Position numbers and translations under genes: made by a program | In this document: positions 7,068 through 64,000 of the stretch, in pieces | Numbering within the stretch: position 1 is the stretch's first letter | Layout: the number at the start of each line of letters is the position of its first letter | The notes under the pieces: generated by a model | The model's input: only the letters and a program-made list of their open reading frames with translations | Told to the model about the DNA's origin: nothing | Databases searched by the model: none | Assembly (NCBI GenBank): GCA_025355385.1 | Contig: JANXZS010000093.1 | Coordinates: 1-64,000, forward strand | Origin: Acidobacteriaceae bacterium | GTDB taxonomy: Bacteria > Acidobacteriota > Terriglobia > Terriglobales > Acidobacteriaceae | Length of the DNA: 64,000 bases | Direction: 5' to 3'

Positions 7068-8015
7068 TCAGCGCACGCGGGCCGCCAACATGGCATCAAC
7101 TGCACCATGCCCCGATGGCACCGCGCCGGGTAGAGGCCTCGAGGAATAGTTTTTGTAGACCGTGATGTGGAAACACGCCTGCTGGAACTCCTCCTCCACA
7201 TCGATTCTCCCGGTGGATTGCAGCGGCAGCAGATAGGCCCGCATCCAGCCGATCTGGGAGGTGGACCATCCCTTTTTGCCAATATCTATAGTTGCGCCGG
7301 TCAGGTGGGGAGAGGCGATGTCACCTTCTGAAGGAGCGGCATTGCCGTTGATGCCCTGCAGATGACGTTGATATGCCACCGTGCGTACGGCGGAGTTGAC
7401 CTGCAGCGGCACACCAAAACGGCTGTAGTGGGCGCGGGCCATGTCGCCAAGGAAGTTCGCCGTCCATTCGCGACAGTAGCGACGGCTCGCCGCAAGCCGG
7501 GAGTCGATGGTCAGCCCATTGTTCACCGGCAGTGAGACTAGTTGCCGCGAGCGGAGCATGCTGGCCAAATCCGCATCATCTTCTATTCGCTTCAGCCCAT
7601 CCTGATCGGCACGCACATTTTGCCGGAGCAGCGATTCGTGGGAGCCTTTCATCGGGGGTGGCAGCGCAAACTTCACATGCTGCAGCGGTATCGTGCGCAG
7701 GATAACTCTGGGCGTCCTATGCTGCGGCGTCAATGCAACCTCTCGCGAGGAGGAACAGTGCCGCCCACGCCGGCAGGGGCGGCTGGTTCGCGCGACTGCC
7801 TGGTGTCGAACCTCGGCGTGCACGGATTTTGCATTCCTGTGCTTCGTCGTTCTTGCATGCGCAGAACCACGCCGTGCCGACGCCACAGAGTGGGTCGACC
7901 TCACCTTGATGTTGTGGGCGTGGGAAGAAGCGAAGTTGTGACGCGGAACGTTCGCCTTTGCCGTAACAGAAAACATCGCACACATAAGTGCGAAAAACAG
8001 TGCAAAACGACACAT
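7068..8015 (-). CDS. secreted DUF5715-type protein with an M15-like (D-Ala-D-Ala peptidase) metal site
   Basis: A 315-residue protein with a short N-terminal signal segment (about 1-21), a basic low-complexity linker rich in His, Arg and Ser (22-110), and a conserved C-terminal domain. That domain carries the pattern of M15/VanY carboxypeptidases: SAVRTVAYQRHLQ (208-220), SPHLTGATIDIG with His237 and Asp244 as candidate zinc ligands, then acidic residues 274-276 and CFHITVY with His283 as third ligand. I infer a periplasmic peptidoglycan or peptide hydrolase; no substrate is shown. It is divergent from the gene at 8301. Confidence 0.65.
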   Translation of the reverse strand: MCRFALFFALMCAMFSVTAKANVPRHNFASSHAHNIKVRSTHSVASARRGSAHARTTKHRNAKSVHAEVRHQAVARTSRPCRRGRHCSSSREVALTPQHRTPRVILRTIPLQHVKFALPPPMKGSHESLLRQNVRADQDGLKRIEDDADLASMLRSRQLVSLPVNNGLTIDSRLAASRRYCREWTANFLGDMARAHYSRFGVPLQVNSAVRTVAYQRHLQGINGNAAPSEGDIASPHLTGATIDIGKKGWSTSQIGWMRAYLLPLQSTGRIDVEEEFQQACFHITVYKNYSSRPLPGAVPSGHGAVDAMLAARVR

Positions 8016-8300
8016 GGGCGGGACCGCGGAGAATGCCAGAGATCCTTATGCTAGGGCTTACTCTGGAAAGCGGGAAGTGCCCATCATGGTTCCCGGTTTG
8101 GCCGCGCTTGCCGGCTCCATGTAGCGCAATTTCGCTGCCTCCCTTTCGGTTACGAAATCGTCGGTCTGCGCAGTCTCGGAGCACGAGTGCCAGAAGAGTC
8201 ATGGCCGTCGCACATTTTTTTGGGCACCTCGGCAACATCCGAGGTAACGTCGCAGTCCAATGGATACCTCGCGGACATGTCGCTGAGGTAGTGGGTTTCG

Positions 8301-50057: not shown

Positions 50058-50822
50058 CTACAGTGCTCCGGTCGTAACCGGTTCTATCCAGCCGTAACCC
50101 TTGTTCTCGAGTTCCAACGCCAGTTCCGGCCCACCAGATCGAATCATCCGGCCGTTTGCCAGCACGTGTACAAAGTCCGGGACAATATAATCCAGCAGCC
50201 TCTGATAATGAGTTACAAGCACAATCGCGCGATCCGGGCTGCGCATCGCGTTCACTCCCGCGGCCACAACCTTGAGCGCATCGATATCCAGGCCGGAGTC
50301 GGTTTCATCCAGAATTGCAAGCTTAGGTTCGAGCACCGCCATCTGCACAATCTCGTTCCGCTTCTTCTCACCACCGGAAAACCCTTCGTTCACCGAGCGA
50401 CTCTGGAAGCGCTCCTCCATCCCCAACAGGCGCATCTTCTCGCGCAGCACAGGAAGAAAGTCGATAGCGTCCAGCTCCTCTTCGCCTCGGTACTTACGCT
50501 GAGCATTCAGCGCCGCCCTTAGAAAATACGCATTGCTGATTCCCGCAACTTCAATCGGGTATTGAAAGGCCATGAAGAGACCCTCGCAGGCTGCTTCCTC
50601 CGCCTTCATCGCCAACAAGTCTTTCCCGTTGAACTGCACCTCACCCTGGGTAACCTCATAAGTCTCACGCCGTGCCAGCACTTGCGCCAGCGTGCTCTTG
50701 CCCGATCCATTCGGTCCCATGATCGCGTGTATCTCGCCAACGCCGACCGTCAGGTCAATCCCCTTCAGAATCTCCTGATGATTGATACTCGCGTGTAGAT
50801 TGCGGATTTCCAGCATGCCCAT
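50058..50822 (-). CDS. sufC: Fe-S cluster assembly ATPase SufC
   Basis: ABC-type ATPase of the SufBC2D complex, 254 residues. Walker [10 protein letters not shown], the [11 protein letters not shown] signature and Walker [13 protein letters not shown] followed by the switch histidine in [10 protein letters not shown] are all present. It has no membrane domain, as expected. ATG 50822 follows GGGGTAAAG; a second ATG lies two codons on. The sufB frame, as read here, runs 68 bp into sufC. Confidence 0.96.
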
Positions 50823-52278
50823 CTTTACCCCACGCTCCCTTCAGGCTGACGCTCAGCAGCTTTTGTGCCTCTACTGCAAACTCCATCGGCAACTCGCGGA
50901 AGACCTGCTTGCAGAACCCGTTGATAATCATCGAGACTGCTTCCTCAGCGGAAAGACCTCGCTGCCGCAGGTAGAAAATCTGGTCCTCGCCAACCTTTGA
51001 CGTGGATGCCTCATGCTCCATCTGCGCGCTGCCATTCCTTACTTCGATGTAAGGGAAGGTGTGCGCACCACATTTGTCGCCGATCAACAATGAGTCGCAT
51101 TGGGTATAGTTCCGCGCTCCCGTTGCACCCTTCATGATCTTGACCTGTCCGCGATAAGTATTCTGCCCAAACCCGGCGGAGATACCCTTGGCTACCACCG
51201 TGCTGCGGGTGTTCTTCCCGATGTGAATCATCTTTGTCCCGGTATCGGCCTGCTGATAATTGTTAGTCAGCGCAACCGAGTAGAACTCGCCTATCGAGTT
51301 ATCCCCTATTAATATGCAGCTGGGATACTTCCATGTGATCGCGGATCCCGTCTCCACTTGCGTCCATGAGATCTTCGAATTCTTCCCCAGGCATTTACCG
51401 CGCTTCGTAACGAAGTTGTAAATGCCGCCCTTACCCTGCTTGTCACCTGGATACCAGTTCTGCACTGTCGAATACTTGATCTGGGCATAGTCGAGCGCAA
51501 CCAGTTCCACAACCGCCGCGTGCAACTGGTTCTCATCCCTTACCGGCGCGGTACAGCCTTCCAGGTAACTCACAGATGCGCCTTCTTCCGCGATAATCAG
51601 GGTTCGCTCGAACTGCCCCGTGTCCGCCGCGTTGATGCGGAAGTAGGTCGATAGTTCCATCGGGCAGCGCACACCCTTAGGCACATACACAAAGGATCCG
51701 TCGCTGAATACCGCGGCGTTCAATGTGGCGAAAAAGTTATCGGTATAGGGAACAACCGATCCGAGATACTTTTCGATCAGCGCCGGATGCTTGCGCACGG
51801 CTTCTGAAAACGAGCAGAAGATAACGCCCTTCTCCGCCAGCTTTTCCTTGAAGGTCGTCGCTACCGAGACGCTGTCGAATACCGCATCCACTGCCACACC
51901 CGATAGCCGCTTCTGCTCTCCGAGTGAGATACCCAGTTTTTCGTAGGCCTTCAAGATCTCCGGGTCAACTTCGTCCAGGCTCGTGCGACCCGGCTTCTGC
52001 TTCGGCGCCGAGTAGTAAACAATATTCTGATAATCAATGGGGGGGTACTTGATGTGCGCCCACTTCGGCTCAGACTGTGACCGTTCGAGCGAGACCCAGT
52101 GGCGATACGCTTTTAGCCGCCACTGCAGCATGAATTCCGGCTCTTCTTTCTTGGATGAGATTAGCCGGACAACATCCTCGTTCAACCCCTTCGGGATCCT
52201 GTCCTCGTCAACCTCGGTAATAAAGCCCCACTTATATTCCTGATCGGTAAAATCCTGGATAGTGTTTGCAGTAGTCAT
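50755..52278 (-). CDS. sufB: Fe-S cluster assembly scaffold SufB, probable 3' frameshift
   Basis: Main scaffold of the SUF system. The core is complete: [55 protein letters not shown], the cysteine in [22 protein letters not shown], and [12 protein letters not shown]. The ATG at 52278 overlaps the rrf2 stop as ATGA. After SVSL the frame reads [14 protein letters not shown] and runs 68 bp into sufC. Adding one base there gives EGSVG and a TAA at 50825-50827, the normal SufB ending. So either a one-base deletion or a sequencing error is likely; the protein core is unaffected. Confidence 0.93.
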
Positions 52279-52754
52279 TGAAGCCTTCCTGATCCGAGGG
52301 TTATTGCGGTAAGCACGTTTGCGTGGCTGGGCGCCCGGGTCCCCAGCCGCAACGAAGTTGTGAGATCGGAAAGAGTGATGCCCTCCAGCGTCTGCTGCAG
52401 GGCTCGACTGATTACGTGGGAGTTGTGCTGCACCCCGCAGATGCCTTCGAGTCCGCAATAGCCGGGCGCAGTCGCGCACTCAGTGAAACCAATCGGACCT
52501 TCAAGCGATTCGACAATCTCTGCCACGGAAATCTGCGACGGGGCACGTGCTAGCGTGTAACCACCCTTGACGCCGCGGTACGAAATTAGAAGCTTTTGGT
52601 CGAGCAGCGCTTTCAGAATCTTAACCACCGTCGCCGCGGGAAGCTGCGTGGCCACGACCAGTTCACGCGTTGTATGCAGCGCGGCCTTTGGATGGCTGCC
52701 AACATACTGCATGACAACTAGGCCGTAATCAGTCAGTTTATTCAGTCTGAACAT
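52275..52754 (-). CDS. sufR: Rrf2-family Fe-S regulator of the suf operon
   Basis: A 159-residue winged-helix repressor from the ATG at 52754. The helix-turn-helix is in [23 protein letters not shown], the wing in [12 protein letters not shown], and three cysteines at 93, 100 and 106 ([14 protein letters not shown]) form a likely Fe-S ligand set as in IscR/SufR. It is the first gene of the operon and overlaps sufB by four bases, so it probably represses its own operon when Fe-S supply is adequate. A palindromic candidate operator lies just upstream. Confidence 0.88.
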
Positions 52755-52763
52755 AGTGGCTCG

Positions 52764-52824
52764 GCTCACAACTCGAAATCTATACTAGACAAGTATAGGT
52801 TTAAAGGTACCATGGGTTGTGAGC
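52764..52824 (-). promoter_or_regulatory. nested inverted repeats, candidate operator of the suf operon
   Basis: The inner palindrome CTATACT-agaca-AGTATAG (52780-52798) is a perfect 7-bp dyad, of the size Rrf2 proteins bind. It lies inside an outer perfect 9-bp inverted repeat GCTCACAAC (52764-52772) / GTTGTGAGC (52816-52824). The inner repeat on the minus strand contains TATACT, a plausible -10 box, so a bound regulator would block the promoter. Located 10-70 bp upstream of the rrf2 start. Confidence 0.62.
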
Positions 52825-57135: not shown

Positions 57136-59295
57136 ATGACAATCGTTTCGCACGTCTCACTCTCTCATGCCTTCTTGTCCCGTGCCTGCTCCGCCCTGGC
57201 ACTCGCAGCCTGCTGCACCGTGCCTGCTTATCCGCAAGCCGTCACTCTTCCCCCTATCACCCTTGATGAGTTCTTCAGCGCGACGCAATTGCGTGGGGCG
57301 CGTCTGGCCGCCGACGGTACAGCAGCCGTCATTCCAACCGTCACGCCAGACTGGAAGCATGATCGCTTTCGCCACGATTTATGGCTCTGGCGCGAGAAGA
57401 CGGGCGCGCCTACTTTGCTCACCAGTTCAGGGCACGACAGCGCGCCGGAGTGGTCTCCCGATGGCCGCTACATCGCCTTCGTCTCCGATCGCACACTGCC
57501 AGTGGACGAGGAGACTGCCACTGACAAGCACGATTCGGATAAGCACGATGAAGATAACCGCACCGATCGAGTGTGGCTGATCGATCCCAACGGCGGAGAG
57601 GCGTTCCCCCTCTATCGCGAAAAACTTGCCGTCCATGGATTTGCCTGGGCTCCCCAGGGTGCCGACATCTACTTCTCCATCACCGAGCCGCTTGCCAAAG
57701 ATCGGCAGGACGCCGACAAAAGCCAGTGGAAGGATGTCACTCGCTGGCGAGAGCAGGAGCACGGCGATGTCCTCCTACGCATCCCTCTCGCCACTGCGCT
57801 TGCGGGGAATGTGGTGGTCCCTCTCGCCAGCCATAAGGATGTGGAGGTAGCCCCTAACGTAGTAGCGTATCCCAAAGGCGCGACCGTCCTCGTCCATAGC
57901 AACGACGAAATTGAACAGATCGCTCCCGCTCCGGTGGGACCATCGCTCGCCTTCAACACGCGGCCAGTTTCCCATCGCGTGGAGAGCATGCCAAATTATG
58001 AAATCTTTCTGTGGAGCGGCGATGGTTCCACGGCAAAACAGGTGACCCATAACGACGCGATCGAGAGCGATCTCGCCTGGAGTCCCGACGCTAAGACACT
58101 TTACTTCCAAGTCCACGCGGCGGGCGGAGCGCTCGATGCCAAATACCACGATGTCCAGGGCCGCATCTATCAACTAGACCCAGCCAGCGGTGCTGTCGAT
58201 CGTCTCGGCGCAGATTTTGAGGGATCGTGGGAGGGCTACACCATCCAGGCCAACGGCAGAATGATCGCCCAAGGTCTGGCGGGTACTGAAGTGCAGCTTT
58301 ACAGCATCGATGGAAAGAGTTCTCATCGGCTGGTCGGAGTGCCGGGGACCTACGGGGACATCGATGCGGCAAAGCATGGCAATCGCATATTGTTTAGCCA
58401 TTCTGCAATCTCACAGCCGACGGAACTCTACGCTTCCGACGATGTCGAGCATCTCGCCGCAGCGAAGCCCGTCACAAACTTCAACGTGCTCTTTACCCAG
58501 CGCGCTCCTCTGCAGTGGCAGACCTATAAGTGGACCACGGACGACGGCGCTGCCGCTGAAGGCGTGCTGATCTATCCGCCGGGAAAATTTGGTGCAAGAA
58601 ATCTCCGCATGCTGACTCTCATTCACGGAGGCCCGGCGGATGCCGATGGCAATCGCTTCGGGGCCGACTGGTATGACTGGGCGGGTCTCGCCGCGGCCAA
58701 CGGATGGCTGGTATTCCGGCCGAACTATCGCGGCTCCAGTGGTTATGGAGACAAGTTCATGGCGCAGATTGAACCCCACCTCGTCTCCCGGCCCGGCAAA
58801 GACATCCTTGAAGGTGTGGATGCGCTGGTGAAGGATGGCATTGCCGATGCCCAGCACCTCACCATCGGCGGCTATAGCTACGGTGGCTATATGACCAACT
58901 GGCTCATCACTCAGACTACCCGCTTCAAGGCAGCCGTCACTGGAGCAGGCGCAGTGGAGCACGCCGCCAACTGGGGCAATGACGACTTGACTGCCGATGA
59001 TGCCTGGTACCTCGGTGGAACTCCATGGGAGAAGCCGGACATGTATCAATCGGAAGCAGCTCTCTTCCAGTTCAATAAAGTTAAAACCCCCACGCACCTC
59101 GTCGCTGGCAATGCGGATGTACGCGTCAGCTACTTTGAGGGGATAGTCATGGAGCGCGCACTACAGAACCTCGGCATACCCCACACCTTCCTCGTTTTTC
59201 CCGGCGAAGGTCATCCCCTCGCTAAGAATCCCTGGCATGGCTACATCAAAGTTCGAGAAGAACTGAAGTGGCTTGAGAAGTTTTCAACGCAATAG
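57136..59295 (+). CDS. S9-family serine peptidase (prolyl oligopeptidase-like), secreted
   Basis: A 719-residue peptidase with a signal peptide (about 1-35), a seven-blade beta-propeller that screens substrates (SAPEWSPDGRYIAFVSD and similar TolB-type blades), and an alpha/beta-hydrolase domain. Catalytic triad: Ser581 in GGYSYGGYM, Asp661 in GNADVRV, His693 in GEGHPL. Such enzymes cleave short peptides in the periplasm, as dipeptidyl or acylaminoacyl peptidases. It lies 124 bp after the TonB receptor gene; uptake and cleavage of peptides by the pair is a fair inference. Confidence 0.92.
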   Translation: MTIVSHVSLSHAFLSRACSALALAACCTVPAYPQAVTLPPITLDEFFSATQLRGARLAADGTAAVIPTVTPDWKHDRFRHDLWLWREKTGAPTLLTSSGHDSAPEWSPDGRYIAFVSDRTLPVDEETATDKHDSDKHDEDNRTDRVWLIDPNGGEAFPLYREKLAVHGFAWAPQGADIYFSITEPLAKDRQDADKSQWKDVTRWREQEHGDVLLRIPLATALAGNVVVPLASHKDVEVAPNVVAYPKGATVLVHSNDEIEQIAPAPVGPSLAFNTRPVSHRVESMPNYEIFLWSGDGSTAKQVTHNDAIESDLAWSPDAKTLYFQVHAAGGALDAKYHDVQGRIYQLDPASGAVDRLGADFEGSWEGYTIQANGRMIAQGLAGTEVQLYSIDGKSSHRLVGVPGTYGDIDAAKHGNRILFSHSAISQPTELYASDDVEHLAAAKPVTNFNVLFTQRAPLQWQTYKWTTDDGAAAEGVLIYPPGKFGARNLRMLTLIHGGPADADGNRFGADWYDWAGLAAANGWLVFRPNYRGSSGYGDKFMAQIEPHLVSRPGKDILEGVDALVKDGIADAQHLTIGGYSYGGYMTNWLITQTTRFKAAVTGAGAVEHAANWGNDDLTADDAWYLGGTPWEKPDMYQSEAALFQFNKVKTPTHLVAGNADVRVSYFEGIVMERALQNLGIPHTFLVFPGEGHPLAKNPWHGYIKVREELKWLEKFSTQ

Positions 59296-59390
59296 CCCGT
59301 GATAGTAGCTCCGTCTCAAAATCATCACGAGACGTGCTAACTGCAGCGCTCCTGAGCCCGGCTAATTCGGTTGTTTTGGTAGCGGCACTG

Positions 59391-60518
59391 TCACGAGGCG
59401 TGCATCAGCGCTCGAATCGTGACTACAGCTTCTTCCAGTTCACGGATCGGCACGCATTCTCGATCGCTATGTGCTGTGCGCATATCTCCCGGCCCGAACA
59501 CCACTACTTCCTCAGCGATCGTTGCCAGCAGGCTCGCCTCGGAAGCAAACGGAATTGAGGTCGCCGCCCTGCCCGTCAGTCTCTCCAGCGCATGCACAAG
59601 CGGCGCGTCGGCATCCGTCTCAAATCCTGCTTGTCGCCGCACCACCTTCATCTCATACCTGCAGCAACCATCGCCCAGATTCCTCTGCTCAGCAGTCTTC
59701 TTGATGATTTCCAGAACCACATCCGTTGGAAGCCCCGGCAGAGGCCTCCACTCCAGCAGAAAGTTGCACTGCGCCGCCACGATATTCTTGGCTGTTCCTC
59801 CCTGGATAGTTCCCACATTCAGAGTGGTAAATCCCGGATTGAAAAATTCGTCCTGCTCCTCCATCAGCCGTGTAGCGTACTCCTCAATCGCCGTCAGCAG
59901 ACGAGCAGCACCGTAGATAGCCGACTGGCCTTGTTCGGGATGCGCACTGTGCGCTTCGTGCCCCAGCACCGTGATCTCCGCCAGGCAATAGCCCTTGCCT
60001 GCGCGCGCCACATGCAGCGAGGTAGGCTCGCCAATTACTACTCGTCGAGGCTCGATCTTCCCCGCAGCGAGCAAGTGCGTAGCTCCAACGCACCCCACCT
60101 CCTCGTCTGCGGTCAGCACCAATCTCAGTCCATCGACGAATCCCGCTCCTTCGCTGCCGCTCGCCGCCGTCAGTAAACACGCCAAGAATCCCTTAACATC
60201 GCAGGCGCCGCATCCGAATAGCTGCCCATCCCGTTCGAAAAGATCGAGTGCTCTCGTCCACTCCGCCGCATGTGGAACGGTATCCGTGTGACACATGAAG
60301 GCTAAGTCGACCAAGGTGTCTTCCACCTGTTGGCCGGGAGGCGCGGCGATAAGATTCACTTTGTCTATCCCGGCCGCATCCCGATAGGTTAGCGGTTGCA
60401 TTTGCCAACGGGCTTCGCGCAGCACCTCCGTTGCATAGTCCACCACCGGGCGGTTCGAAATAGACGAGACCGAATCAATCCGAACTAAGTCTGAAAGATG
60501 TTCGACCACTGTCTTCAT
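59391..60518 (-). CDS. M20-family deacylase (ArgE-like) in the hut operon
   Basis: A 375-residue dizinc M20/ArgE-fold enzyme. Metal and catalytic residues are visible in CHTDTVP (His, Asp), GCGACDVKG (Asp), TADEEVGCVGA (catalytic Glu and metal Glu), and a late histidine in RTAHSDRE. ArgE itself deacetylates N-acetylornithine. Here the ATG overlaps the hutF stop as ATGA and no arginine gene is near, while no hutG is seen. I infer that it may hydrolyse N-formyl-L-glutamate, the HutF product. It could instead be ArgE carried in the operon. Confidence 0.8.
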   Translation of the reverse strand: MKTVVEHLSDLVRIDSVSSISNRPVVDYATEVLREARWQMQPLTYRDAAGIDKVNLIAAPPGQQVEDTLVDLAFMCHTDTVPHAAEWTRALDLFERDGQLFGCGACDVKGFLACLLTAASGSEGAGFVDGLRLVLTADEEVGCVGATHLLAAGKIEPRRVVIGEPTSLHVARAGKGYCLAEITVLGHEAHSAHPEQGQSAIYGAARLLTAIEEYATRLMEEQDEFFNPGFTTLNVGTIQGGTAKNIVAAQCNFLLEWRPLPGLPTDVVLEIIKKTAEQRNLGDGCCRYEMKVVRRQAGFETDADAPLVHALERLTGRAATSIPFASEASLLATIAEEVVVFGPGDMRTAHSDRECVPIRELEEAVVTIRALMHAS

Positions 60519-61921
60519 CGCCTATGGCTCCCAGCCTGGTTGTCATACCACACCTTCTGGTGAACCTCTTTGTAGCGAGCGACAATCTCTGCCTCGAGCG
60601 CATGCCGCTGCTCCGTCACCACGAACCTACCATTGATCACTACATCGCGAATCGCCGACCGGCCCAAGGAGAAGACCATCATTGGCAGCAGATCCTCGGC
60701 AGTGTGGCCCGCAATCGATACATCCTTCAGATCGACCGTGAAAAAGTCAGCATAGGAATCCGCCCGCAACGTACCCCCCGGAATATTTAGCGCGCGAGCA
60801 CCGTTGACCGTCGCACAGTCAAATAGCCTTGTGGCCAACGCCCGTCCTTCTATCTGGTCCAGCACCGCACGCTTTTGATAGCTGAGACGAAGGTGATAGT
60901 CCAGTTCGCGTGCATCTTCGAGCGGATCGATCTGCGCTTGGCTATCCGAACCCAGTGCCACTTGAATTCCCGCCTTCATGCCTTCATCGGCAGCGAAGAT
61001 GCCGTCCCCAAGGTTTCGCTCGGTCGTTGGACAGCAACATATCCTCGCACCGGATTGCGCCAGCGCATCGATTTCTCCCACGCTGATATGGATCGCGTGC
61101 ACCGCGGTGAAATCCGGTCCCAGAAGCCCTTCTTCGTTCAGCAACTCCACCGGCGTCATGCCATACTCCCGCTCACACGCTGCATTCTCCGCTACCTGTT
61201 CCGCCACATGCATATGGATTGGTAGCTGACGGCTCCGGCTCCATGCCGAAATTTCCTTGAGCTCGTTCAGCGGCACGGCACGAATGCTATGGGGAGCAAC
61301 CCCAAATCGCACTTCGGCGGAGTCAGCCGGATACTCTCCCACAAGCCCATCCAAATTGTCCAGAAACTGACGCGTCGATTCAAAAAAGCGGATCTGGCGC
61401 TTGTCGTCTGCCATTTCGAACCCTGATCGCAAATACGCTGTCCGCAGCAGAACGATCCGTACGCCGACAGATTGCGCCGCCGCAATTACCTGCTTGCTCA
61501 ACAGATTCGGGTCCTCGTAAGCACGCCCATCCTGCGCATTGTGCAGGTAGTGGAATTCACCCACCGTCGTCGTTCCTGCTAGAACCATTTCCAGAAACGC
61601 CATGCGTGCCACATCGTAAACGTCCTTGGGATCTAGCCGGGCTGCCCCGTGGTACATAGTCCCGCGCCATGACCAGAAATCTGTACCACTCACCGTGCGC
61701 GATTCTGACTTGCCCCGGATCAGCCGCTGAAAGGAATGAGAATGTGCATTTACAAAGCCCGGCATAAGCGCCTTGCCGGGAAGATCGACGATCTCATCAG
61801 CGGACGTATCTGCACTGGAGGTCACGCCGACAACCTCGCCGCGTTCGCTGACGAGCACTGCGGCATGCGCTACGAACCGGCCGTCCGCGTACAACAACTC
61901 AGGACGATAGAGTGTCTTCAT
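60515..61921 (-). CDS. hutF: formimidoylglutamate deiminase HutF
   Basis: Amidohydrolase that converts N-formimino-L-glutamate to N-formyl-L-glutamate and ammonia in the HutF branch of histidine breakdown. 468 residues from the ATG at 61921 (AAAGG box). The metal site is seen in GFVNAHSHSFQR, HMHVAEQ, AVHAIH and LGSDSQAQIDPLEDAR, and GTDFWSWRGTMY is characteristic of HutF. It lies 31 bp after hutI and overlaps the M20 gene by four bases. The longer frame to 61972 intrudes into hutI and lacks support. Confidence 0.93.
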   Translation of the reverse strand: MKTLYRPELLYADGRFVAHAAVLVSERGEVVGVTSSADTSADEIVDLPGKALMPGFVNAHSHSFQRLIRGKSESRTVSGTDFWSWRGTMYHGAARLDPKDVYDVARMAFLEMVLAGTTTVGEFHYLHNAQDGRAYEDPNLLSKQVIAAAQSVGVRIVLLRTAYLRSGFEMADDKRQIRFFESTRQFLDNLDGLVGEYPADSAEVRFGVAPHSIRAVPLNELKEISAWSRSRQLPIHMHVAEQVAENAACEREYGMTPVELLNEEGLLGPDFTAVHAIHISVGEIDALAQSGARICCCPTTERNLGDGIFAADEGMKAGIQVALGSDSQAQIDPLEDARELDYHLRLSYQKRAVLDQIEGRALATRLFDCATVNGARALNIPGGTLRADSYADFFTVDLKDVSIAGHTAEDLLPMMVFSLGRSAIRDVVINGRFVVTEQRHALEAEIVARYKEVHQKVWYDNQAGSHRR

Positions 61922-61952
61922 CGTTCGCCTTTGTGACGATGGAGACTTTGAT

Positions 61953-63179
61953 TCATGCCACAATCCTCTCACCCTTCACCCACACTTCGCGCACCGCATT
62001 CGTTCCCAGCACGTAAACTAGTTCGCGCCAATCGCTCCCTGGCAACACCAGAAAGTCAGCCTGCAATCCGGCTTCAATTCGTCCCGATTCTACCAGGCCC
62101 AAAGCACTGGCGGCGTTCACTGTCCCCGCAACCAGGGCCTCCTGCGCAGTCAGTCCATTCAAACGAACAGCCAGTGCCAACGCGACAGAGATCGAAAACA
62201 ATGGACTCGACCCGGGATTTAGATCCGTCCCCACCGCCACAGCGGCACCCGCATCGATGAGGCGCCGCCCCGGTGCCGCCGGTATTCCGAGGTGCAGCGA
62301 CACCCCTGGAAGAATTGTCGCGATTGTCGCGGTCCCAGCTAGCGCGGCATATTGCTCTGGCCCGCATGCCTCCAGGTGATCTACGCTCAAAGCCCCCACG
62401 CGTAGCCCCAACTCCAATCCGCCAATGCGGTGGAACTGCTCGCTGTGCAGCTTCGTTCGCAGGCCATTCTCCTGGGCGGCCCGCAACATGACCTCGGCTT
62501 CCTCGGCGTTCCACGCTTCTTTTTCGACGAACACATCCACTGCCGTCGCCAGCTTGCGCCTGGCTACTTCAGGAATCAGCTCATCCCGCATCAGCGAAAC
62601 ATATGCCGGGCGATCGGTGGGGTCCGAAGGAGGAATATGAATCAGCAAGGTGGGAACAATCCGAGCAGGCGTAAGTCCGGCCAGTTCCTCGATTGCCTCG
62701 AGCATCGCAATCTCTCCGGCGGCGGTGAACCCGTAACCGGATTTCACTTCGATAACCGTGGCGCCGGATCGAACCAGCGCGTCAATCCGTGACTTTGCAA
62801 GAGCAACAAGTTCTTCCCGCGAAGCCTTCGTGGTCGCACGGATCGTGCTCCGTATGCCGCCCCCTGCAGTCAGAATCGACTCATAGGTTGCGCCCGATGT
62901 GCGCGCCTCAAAGTCCGCAAGGCGGTCTCCTGCCCACACCGCGTGCGTGTGAGGATCGATGAGCCCCGGAACAACGGCGCAGTTGCCAACATCGATTCTT
63001 CGTACCGCTTCACCTGCCCATTCGTGTTCTTTCCCTGTCCACAGAAGTCGGCCACCCGAAATCCCCATCGCAGCCCGCTCAATTATCTTGAGCTCGCCCA
63101 TGGTGCGTCCATGCTTCGGCCCTGGCCCTTCCGCTGTCACCAGCTGCGAGATTCCTGTTATCAGCAGGTCTGCCTTCAT
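61953..63179 (-). CDS. hutI: imidazolonepropionase HutI
   Basis: Third enzyme of histidine degradation, opening imidazolone-5-propionate to N-formimino-L-glutamate. 408 residues. Metal ligands are in [27 protein letters not shown] and SVDHLEACG, with [10 protein letters not shown] near the C-terminus. The substrate-binding [19 protein letters not shown] is typical. It overlaps the hutU stop by four bases (ATGA). Confidence 0.95.
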
Positions 63180-64000
63180 CGCACGCTCGGCAGATCCAGG
63201 CCGCGTTGTTTCGCCGTTGCCTTGGCTATCTCATAACCCGCATCGGCATGGCGAACTACACCCAGCGCTGGATCGTTGGTCAGGCACATGCGCAGTCGTT
63301 CCTCGGCCTCATCGCTGCCATCTGCTACCGCCACCAGCCCCGCGTGCTGGCTATATCCCATGCCAACGCCGCCACCATGGTGGAAGCTCATCCACGCCGC
63401 ACCACTCGCGATTCCCGTCGCAAAATTCAGCAGGGCCCAGTCCGAAACTGCATCCGATCCATCCAGCATAGCTTCCGTCTCGCGGAACGGACTCGCCACT
63501 GAACCCGCGTCCAGATGATCCCGGCCAATTACGATCGGAGCCTTCAGCCGTCCGTCGCGCACCATCTGGTTGAACAGCAGACCGGCCCGATCCCGCTCGC
63601 GGTATCCCAGCCAGCAGATGCGCGCCGGCAACCCCTGAAAGGCAATCTGGCTGGATGCAAACCCAATCCACTCGTTCAACCGCTTGTCCTCCGGGAAGAG
63701 ATCAAGCATCGCCCGATCCGTCGCAGCAATGTCGGCAGCGTCTCCCGAAAGCGCCACCCAGCGAAATGGTCCGCGTCCTTCGCAGAATGAATCGCGGATA
63801 AACGCCGGCACAAATCCGGGATACGAAAACGCGTCGCTCACACCAGCAAGTTTTGCCTGCGTGCGTAGATTGTTGCCGTAGTCGAACGCTACTGCCCCGC
63901 GCCTCTGCATTTCTAAAATCGCCTGCACGTGTGCAGCGATAGATGTCTGCACGCGCTCGGTGTACTTTTCAGGATGTTGCGCGCGTAGCGTGTTGAGATC
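63176..64000 (-). CDS. hutU: urocanate hydratase HutU, C-terminal part (cut by window edge)
   Basis: About 274 codons of the C-terminal half of urocanase, open to the right edge. The NAD-dependent enzyme turns urocanate into imidazolonepropionate. Conserved pieces include [49 protein letters not shown] and [16 protein letters not shown]. The stop overlaps the hutI start (ATGA), which fixes the operon order hutU-hutI-hutF-M20. The family is normally about 550 residues, so roughly half lies beyond the window. Confidence 0.96.

Follow-up and report, generated by a model that had tools for sequence, protein, structure and literature searches.

The last gene of a histidine-utilisation (hut) operon in an Acidobacteriaceae bacterium (assembly GCA_025355385.1) is predicted to encode an M20-family hydrolase that acts on N-formyl-L-glutamate in place of HutG. 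The gene lies within the stretch of 64,000 nucleotides (nt) analysed here, referred to as the window (contig JANXZS010000093.1, positions 1 to 64,000). The assignment of this protein, termed hut-M20, as an ArgE-derived deformylase is given a probability of roughly 0.8. In the proposed scheme HutF would yield N-formyl-L-glutamate, and hut-M20, a di-metal amidohydrolase from the ArgE branch, would hydrolyse it to formate and L-glutamate, making it the last enzyme of histidine utilisation here instead of HutG. The assignment draws on the gene order and overlap with hutF, the lack of a HutG match, the presence of ArgJ, an intact catalytic motif, co-occurrence with HutF, a separate clade of M20 proteins, a matching fork among HutF proteins and a positional swap with HutG in relatives.

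The hut operon and the missing HutG

Within the window and the contig beyond it, the end of the operon runs on the minus strand in the order hutH-hutU-hutI-hutF, followed by the M20 gene. A sequence-only reading of the window had described an M20 gene overlapping hutF by ATGA, and both open reading frames (ORFs) and the junction were confirmed (Table 1); on the coding strand the junction reads ...CGATGAAG..., with ATGA common to the TGA of hutF and the ATG of the M20 gene. HutF scored over both curated cut-offs (TIGR02022, 463 bits; NF006681, 500 bits) and aligned to 3mdu, an N-formimino-L-glutamate iminohydrolase, along most of its sequence. As the product of HutF is N-formylglutamate, the pathway needs an onward step.

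The same reading had suggested that the M20 enzyme replaces HutG, and no hutG was found elsewhere, with PF05013 giving no match in the whole genome, which is rated 100% complete (321 contigs). A HutG missed through incomplete assembly was rejected on this rating and on the finding of PF05013 in 0/16 of the M20-bearing genomes of the phylum. An arginase-family formiminoglutamase standing in for HutF and HutG was likewise rejected, the sole PF00491 match in the genome being an arginase by TIGR01229. Any need for ArgE in arginine synthesis was also checked. ArgJ was found on contig C191, so ArgE is dispensable for arginine in this genome, and the neighbours of the M20 gene are hut rather than arg genes. 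A single-domain FTCD, a glutamate formimidoyltransferase (TIGR02024), is encoded on contig C301, far from the hut operon, and three further M20 genes were found elsewhere in the genome by a search with the M20 protein (E ≤ 0.01).

Both expected domains of the M20 protein were over the Pfam gathering score (Peptidase_M20, 95.3 bits; M20_dimer, 74.9 bits), and the Pfam scan found no PF05013 (FGase) domain in it. Residues His77, Asp107, Glu139, Glu140, Glu164 and His350, which correspond to the metal and catalytic positions usual for M20 enzymes, show no variation among close homologues in any row that covers the column. The AlphaFold model (predicted local distance difference test score 91.9) has as its nearest solved structure E. 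coli ArgE (Z 42.3, root-mean-square deviation 2.6, 365 aligned residues, 27% identity), as against Z 28.4 and 15% identity for the product of At5g43600, presumably ureidoglycolate amidohydrolase (AtUAH, 4pxe). Carnosinases were present among the fold matches, a list obtained by re-examining Foldseek matches, which rules nothing out. By eye, a signal peptide was not apparent.

Association with HutF and exchange with HutG

In a sample of 396 Acidobacteriota genomes, HutF (TIGR02022, E ≤ 1e-60) was detected in 51, of which 40 were over the cut-off, and an M20 homologue at the same E value in 16, all of them among the 51. At most four candidates were scored per genome, and absence is meant at that threshold. 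The M20 was found in none of the 345 genomes without detected HutF (hypergeometric P ~6e-16 for the co-occurrence, ignoring relatedness). It adjoins hutF in 16/16 genomes with a gap of at most 380 nt; four of the phylum loci, where frames overlap and hutF was not called, were placed by coordinates, gene calls in this GC-rich DNA being rough. Twelve of the 16 genomes belong to the family of the window (f1) and four to a second family (f22).

Of the 51 HutF genomes, 14 gave matches to PF05013. Nine were strong (at least 190 bits) and lay no more than about 2 kb from hutF or shared its operon, and five were weak (30–114 bits) and lay on contigs other than that of hutF. The M20 was found in 0/9 genomes with strong HutG and in 0/14 with any PF05013 match; for the nine, Fisher's exact test, likewise uncorrected for relatedness, gave P 0.006 when restricted to the 40 over-cut-off genomes and 0.04 for the full 51. 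The switch within families says more than these statistics. Among f1 genomes with HutF, 12 carry the M20 and one (G139) carries HutG between hutU and hutI; among those of f22, four carry the M20, two (G307 and G360) carry HutG beside hutF and one (G086) carries neither. Comparison thus lends support to the idea of HutG replacement, with the M20 clade tracking hutF and standing where HutG stands in relatives.

The wider collection consisted of the top 80 loci out of 559 relatives from the genome_contigs scan, namely the 60 closest (L097–L156), from Acidobacteriota and Myxococcota, and 20 more distant (L157–L176). Of the 60 closest loci, 53 include a hutF gene, which in every case shares the strand of the M20 gene: 39 within 400 nt, seven in a hutF-hutU-hutI-M20 run and seven at 0.7–4.7 kb. 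HutG, sought with one query in phmmer, was detected in 0/60 of these loci, and hutF was detected in 0/20 of the more distant ones. Of the 39 immediate pairs, 26 lack any detected hutH, hutU or hutI in the stretch examined, which places the link with HutF itself. Of the seven closest loci without hutF, three (L122, L152 and L153) are short or run up against a contig end, and L156 carries hutU and hutI; the genome-wide search for hutF covered L113 and L128.

The hutF-linked M20 proteins formed one clade of 70 rows with support of 100/99, apart from other ArgE/DapE-like rows, E. coli ArgE and a further set of pairs termed the B group; the partial rows L104, L152, L153 and L156 and the paralogue C203 were left out of this tree. 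In a HutF tree built by a quick method, from which seven rows were omitted as short and eight loci because they gave no HutF row, 62 M20-partnered rows and that of G086 fell in one fork (Shimodaira–Hasegawa-like approximate likelihood ratio test, 98). Under midpoint rooting, all ten HutG-partnered HutF rows were on the opposite side (fork support 89). The M20 thus evolves alongside a particular HutF.

Clade-fixed residues that differ from the outgroup include Tyr177 (74/74), Glu256-Trp257, Arg294 and Lys244. The counts cover 74 rows, made up of 14 of the 16 phylum members and the 60 loci, although L118, L139 and L155 seem to duplicate genomes of those 14. Lys244 is present in 70/73 filled hut-M20 rows (67/70 without the three duplicates) and Arg294 in 73/73, with each found in 0/21 outgroup and 0/5 B-group rows. 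Lys244 adjoins Asn245, which we take to be the residue that reaches the active site of the partner in M20 dimers, as in DapE structures. Both basic and peculiar to the clade, Lys244 and Arg294 may assist in holding the side-chain carboxylate of glutamate at the place where ornithine binds in ArgE.

The B group comprises an ArgE-like M20 gene beside a HutF-like gene in seven Acidobacteriota genomes, with called frames that mostly overlap. Six of the seven HutF-like proteins are under the TIGR02022 cut-off, no hutH, hutU or hutI was detected near the pairs, and both Lys244 and Arg294 are missing from the five M20 rows aligned.

Conflicting observations and competing explanations

A number of observations weigh against a deformylase role and were considered together with three other explanations. 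The NCBIfam equivalog model TIGR01892 names the M20 protein acetylornithine deacetylase (321 bits, cut-off 297.7), and it also accepts the other hutF-linked members tried (3/3). An ordinary N-acetylornithine deacetylase sitting in the hut operon by chance would fit this result, as it would the closeness of the fold to E. coli ArgE and the absence of ArgJ from all seven HutF-bearing f22 genomes, three of which are also without the M20. The argument from ArgJ consequently holds for f1 only, where ArgJ was found in 13/13 HutF-bearing genomes, that of the window included. For an arginine enzyme, however, absence from 345 genomes without HutF would be unexpected, and the clade has its own residues at positions where ArgE-like outgroups differ. 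An ordinary ArgE was rejected as the best reading on the presence of ArgJ and the tie to HutF, and is regarded as improbable.

FTCD could offer a second way to glutamate, by accepting the formyl or formimino group, and was found in 40 of the 51 HutF genomes, this one among them. FTCD is a folate-dependent transferase, and the M20 family includes carnosinases and N-acyl amino acid hydrolases. It could accordingly be supposed that the M20 enzyme frees histidine from N-acylhistidine or histidine dipeptides, while the single-domain FTCD uses N-formylglutamate by formyl transfer to tetrahydrofolate. Other M20 genes do occur near hut genes: near hutI or hutF of at least three HutF genomes (G214, G089 and G110) lies another kind of M20 gene, whose product looks secreted by eye and is weakly similar (46–52 bits) to a paralogue in the genome of the window. 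These are perhaps dipeptidases supplying histidine, and they indicate that M20 proteins encoded in hut loci can serve other purposes, for instance the cleavage of dipeptides. Against such a role for hut-M20, its steady partner is hutF and not hutH, as the many pairs without other hut genes attest, and no signal peptide was seen. FTCD was also present in 7/9 strong-HutG genomes and so does not track the loss of HutG; FTCD_N was found in 13/13 HutF-bearing f1 genomes, and recycling of 5-formyltetrahydrofolate is perhaps the role of the single-domain form. The mutual avoidance of HutG and the M20 would be left unexplained. Histidine release is therefore considered about as improbable as an ordinary ArgE.

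The deformylase reading must also accommodate HutF genomes with no evident partner. Fourteen over-cut-off HutF genomes, among them the three with secreted-looking M20 genes, lack strong HutG and likewise have no ArgE-like gene adjoining hutF, so the M20 is not indicated by a lack of HutG on its own. FTCD was found in 10 of the 14, and in the four without it (G110, G334, G372 and G386) a further route beyond HutG, the M20 and FTCD may exist. In G086, an M20-type HutF occurs with neither such an M20 nor HutG in the genome, which carries FTCD in a frame of 515 amino acids (aa).

Two Archangium genomes retain the M20 despite having HutG. The whole-genome PF05013 search covered 50 of the 60 closest loci (all except L103, L106, L109, L118, L121, L139, L140, L142, L148 and L155) and gave strong matches only in these two, L113 and L128; three others were two weak matches over the cut-off (44.5 and 29 bits) and one below it. 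In both Archangium genomes HutG stands beside hutF, hut-M20 stands alone elsewhere and Lys244 is lost, although in L128 only the end of hutF is present on the contig beside HutG. The HutF of the L113 genome falls among the HutG-partnered rows of the quick tree, and these genomes look like cases in which a HutF-M20 pair was replaced by a HutF-HutG pair. Lys244 is otherwise absent only in L152, whose M20 gene lies beside an FTCD gene that is bifunctional by eye. As L113 and L128 are sister rows, the losses amount to two events, and the pattern was noticed after the fact. HutG in L113 and L128 and the neighbouring FTCD in L152 could carry out the step instead; L126 keeps Lys244 despite a nearby FTCD-like match.

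The distinct fork of M20-partnered HutF proteins, and the immediate pairs without another hut gene nearby, would also suit a separate salvage module. The substrate of the M20 would then be some other product of a special HutF clade, such as a different N-formyl or N-formimino amino acid. Against this, the pair sits inside a hutHUIF operon in f1 and in certain other loci, where HutF would handle formiminoglutamate, and the HutF of the window is over both curated cut-offs and aligns to 3mdu along the greater part of its length. This explanation is judged the least probable of the three, and N-formyl-L-glutamate remains the most likely substrate.

Locus features, related enzymes and implications

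The features of the window and of the comparison loci are collected in Table 1. The start of hutF was taken as the ATG at 61921, the longest ORF beginning at 61972. Past the window lie the rest of hutU, hutH and then a divergent Lrp/AsnC gene (the latter two named by eye). Downstream of the M20 gene the next gene is convergent and S9 peptidase-like by eye, and a promoter and terminator scan of 59200-62100 gave nothing above shuffles. The Lrp/AsnC-type gene is present in 12/12 f1 loci with the M20 and is divergent from hutH in 11/12. Five other hut loci (G139, G041, G253, G277 and G152) share a GntR/HutC-like gene by eye, one sequence having been read. In L112 the hutF-M20 pair is flanked upstream by a large, secreted-looking peptidase-like gene and downstream by a gene for a secreted protein, and several related loci have genes of similar length and place. 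Elsewhere in the window, the longest reading of a SufB-like ORF (by eye) overlaps a same-strand Rrf2-like regulator ORF, and the true start of SufB is probably further inside.

Table 1. Coordinates of the hut-M20 locus in the window and of sites in comparison loci (L numbers)
Feature	Position	Strand	Basis or remark
M20 (ArgE-like) hydrolase, predicted N-formyl-L-glutamate deformylase (hut-M20)	59391-60518	-	375 aa; domains, clade, context
ATGA overlap, M20 start and hutF stop	60515-60518	-	coding-strand junction read
hutF, formimidoylglutamate deiminase	60515-61921	-	468 aa; curated models, closest solved relative 3mdu
hutI, imidazolonepropionase	61953-63179	-	TIGR01224, 405 bits
hutU, urocanate hydratase, C-terminal part	63176-64000, continues past window	-	TIGR01228
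Lys244 codon, in GGTAKN motif	59787-59789	-	residue counts
Arg294 codon	59637-59639	-	residue counts
S9 peptidase-like gene	57136-59295	+	by eye
SufB-like ORF	50755-52769		by eye
Single-domain FTCD (contig C301)	L013 6256-7200		TIGR02024
Lrp/AsnC-type gene	L001 11489-11953
Genes flanking the L112 pair	L112 2324-4165 (upstream), 7156-8265 (downstream)
Archangium sites	L113 5968-7131; L128 5965-7119; L181 7388-9631
G086 site	L059 7620-9122		M20-type HutF, neither such M20 nor HutG
M20 genes of G214, G089 and G110	L073 5242-6474; L076 8898-11729 (frame); L077 4561-5934
B-group loci	L083 6273-8740; L084 7904-10410; L086 6310-8900; L088 7604-10029; L089 7668-10069; also L085, L087
Closest loci without hutF in locus	L113, L122, L126, L128, L152, L153, L156
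Over-cut-off HutF loci with neither strong HutG nor ArgE-like gene beside hutF	L059, L064, L065, L066, L067, L068, L071, L073, L074, L075, L076, L077, L081, L082

With ArgE (TIGR01892; E. coli 7rsf and 8uw6) hut-M20 shares the M20 fold, the dimerisation domain, the metal and catalytic residues and an N-acyl-alpha-amino acid type of substrate, but it differs in its operon with hutF, in the presence of ArgJ in genomes of the family and in the clade-specific Tyr177, Lys244, Glu256-Trp257 and Arg294. With HutG (PF05013) it shares the predicted reaction and the place beside hutF, whereas the protein families are unrelated. FTCD (TIGR02024) resembles it as an alternative route from formimino- or formylglutamate to glutamate, but here is unlinked to the operon and single-domain.

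Non-homologous replacement within a known pathway is of a familiar kind, and a deformylase within COG0624 has already been proposed in print (PMC3223725). Table 3 of that paper (case 20) gives COG0624, under At5g43600, as a predicted 'alternative form of N-formylglutamate deformylase' in SEED for Streptomyces, likewise an M20-type enzyme replacing HutG. In the only published test of such a protein that was found, the Streptomyces avermitilis COG0624 protein is reported to lack deformylase activity (PMC3223725), a further point against the present assignment. Judging by the Arabidopsis gene in the table, the Streptomyces protein seems to belong to another M20 subfamily. Since AtUAH is far from the M20 of the window, the Streptomyces negative need not carry over. 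Searches of an open-licence library, judged by their listings, turned up no publication linking an ArgE-type enzyme to N-formylglutamate, nor any on the ArgE-type clade, its module with HutF or its swap with HutG.

Taken more broadly, and with somewhat less confidence than for the single protein, the Acidobacteriota and Myxococcota clade named by TIGR01892 is probably a dedicated N-formyl-L-glutamate deformylase with its origin in the ArgE branch. It would form a two-gene module with its own HutF clade, interchangeable with HutF-HutG, in which Lys244 and Arg294 would set the switch from ornithine to glutamate, with the B group as a second recruitment. If so, the last step of histidine breakdown would be filled in many soil Acidobacteriota and myxobacteria, and the argE name given to members of the clade by a curated equivalog model would be corrected. 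The case would be a clean example of one enzyme replaced by a non-homologous one, with partner enzymes exchanged as a module, and would revive, for another subfamily, a prediction shelved when a test reported in 2011 proved negative.

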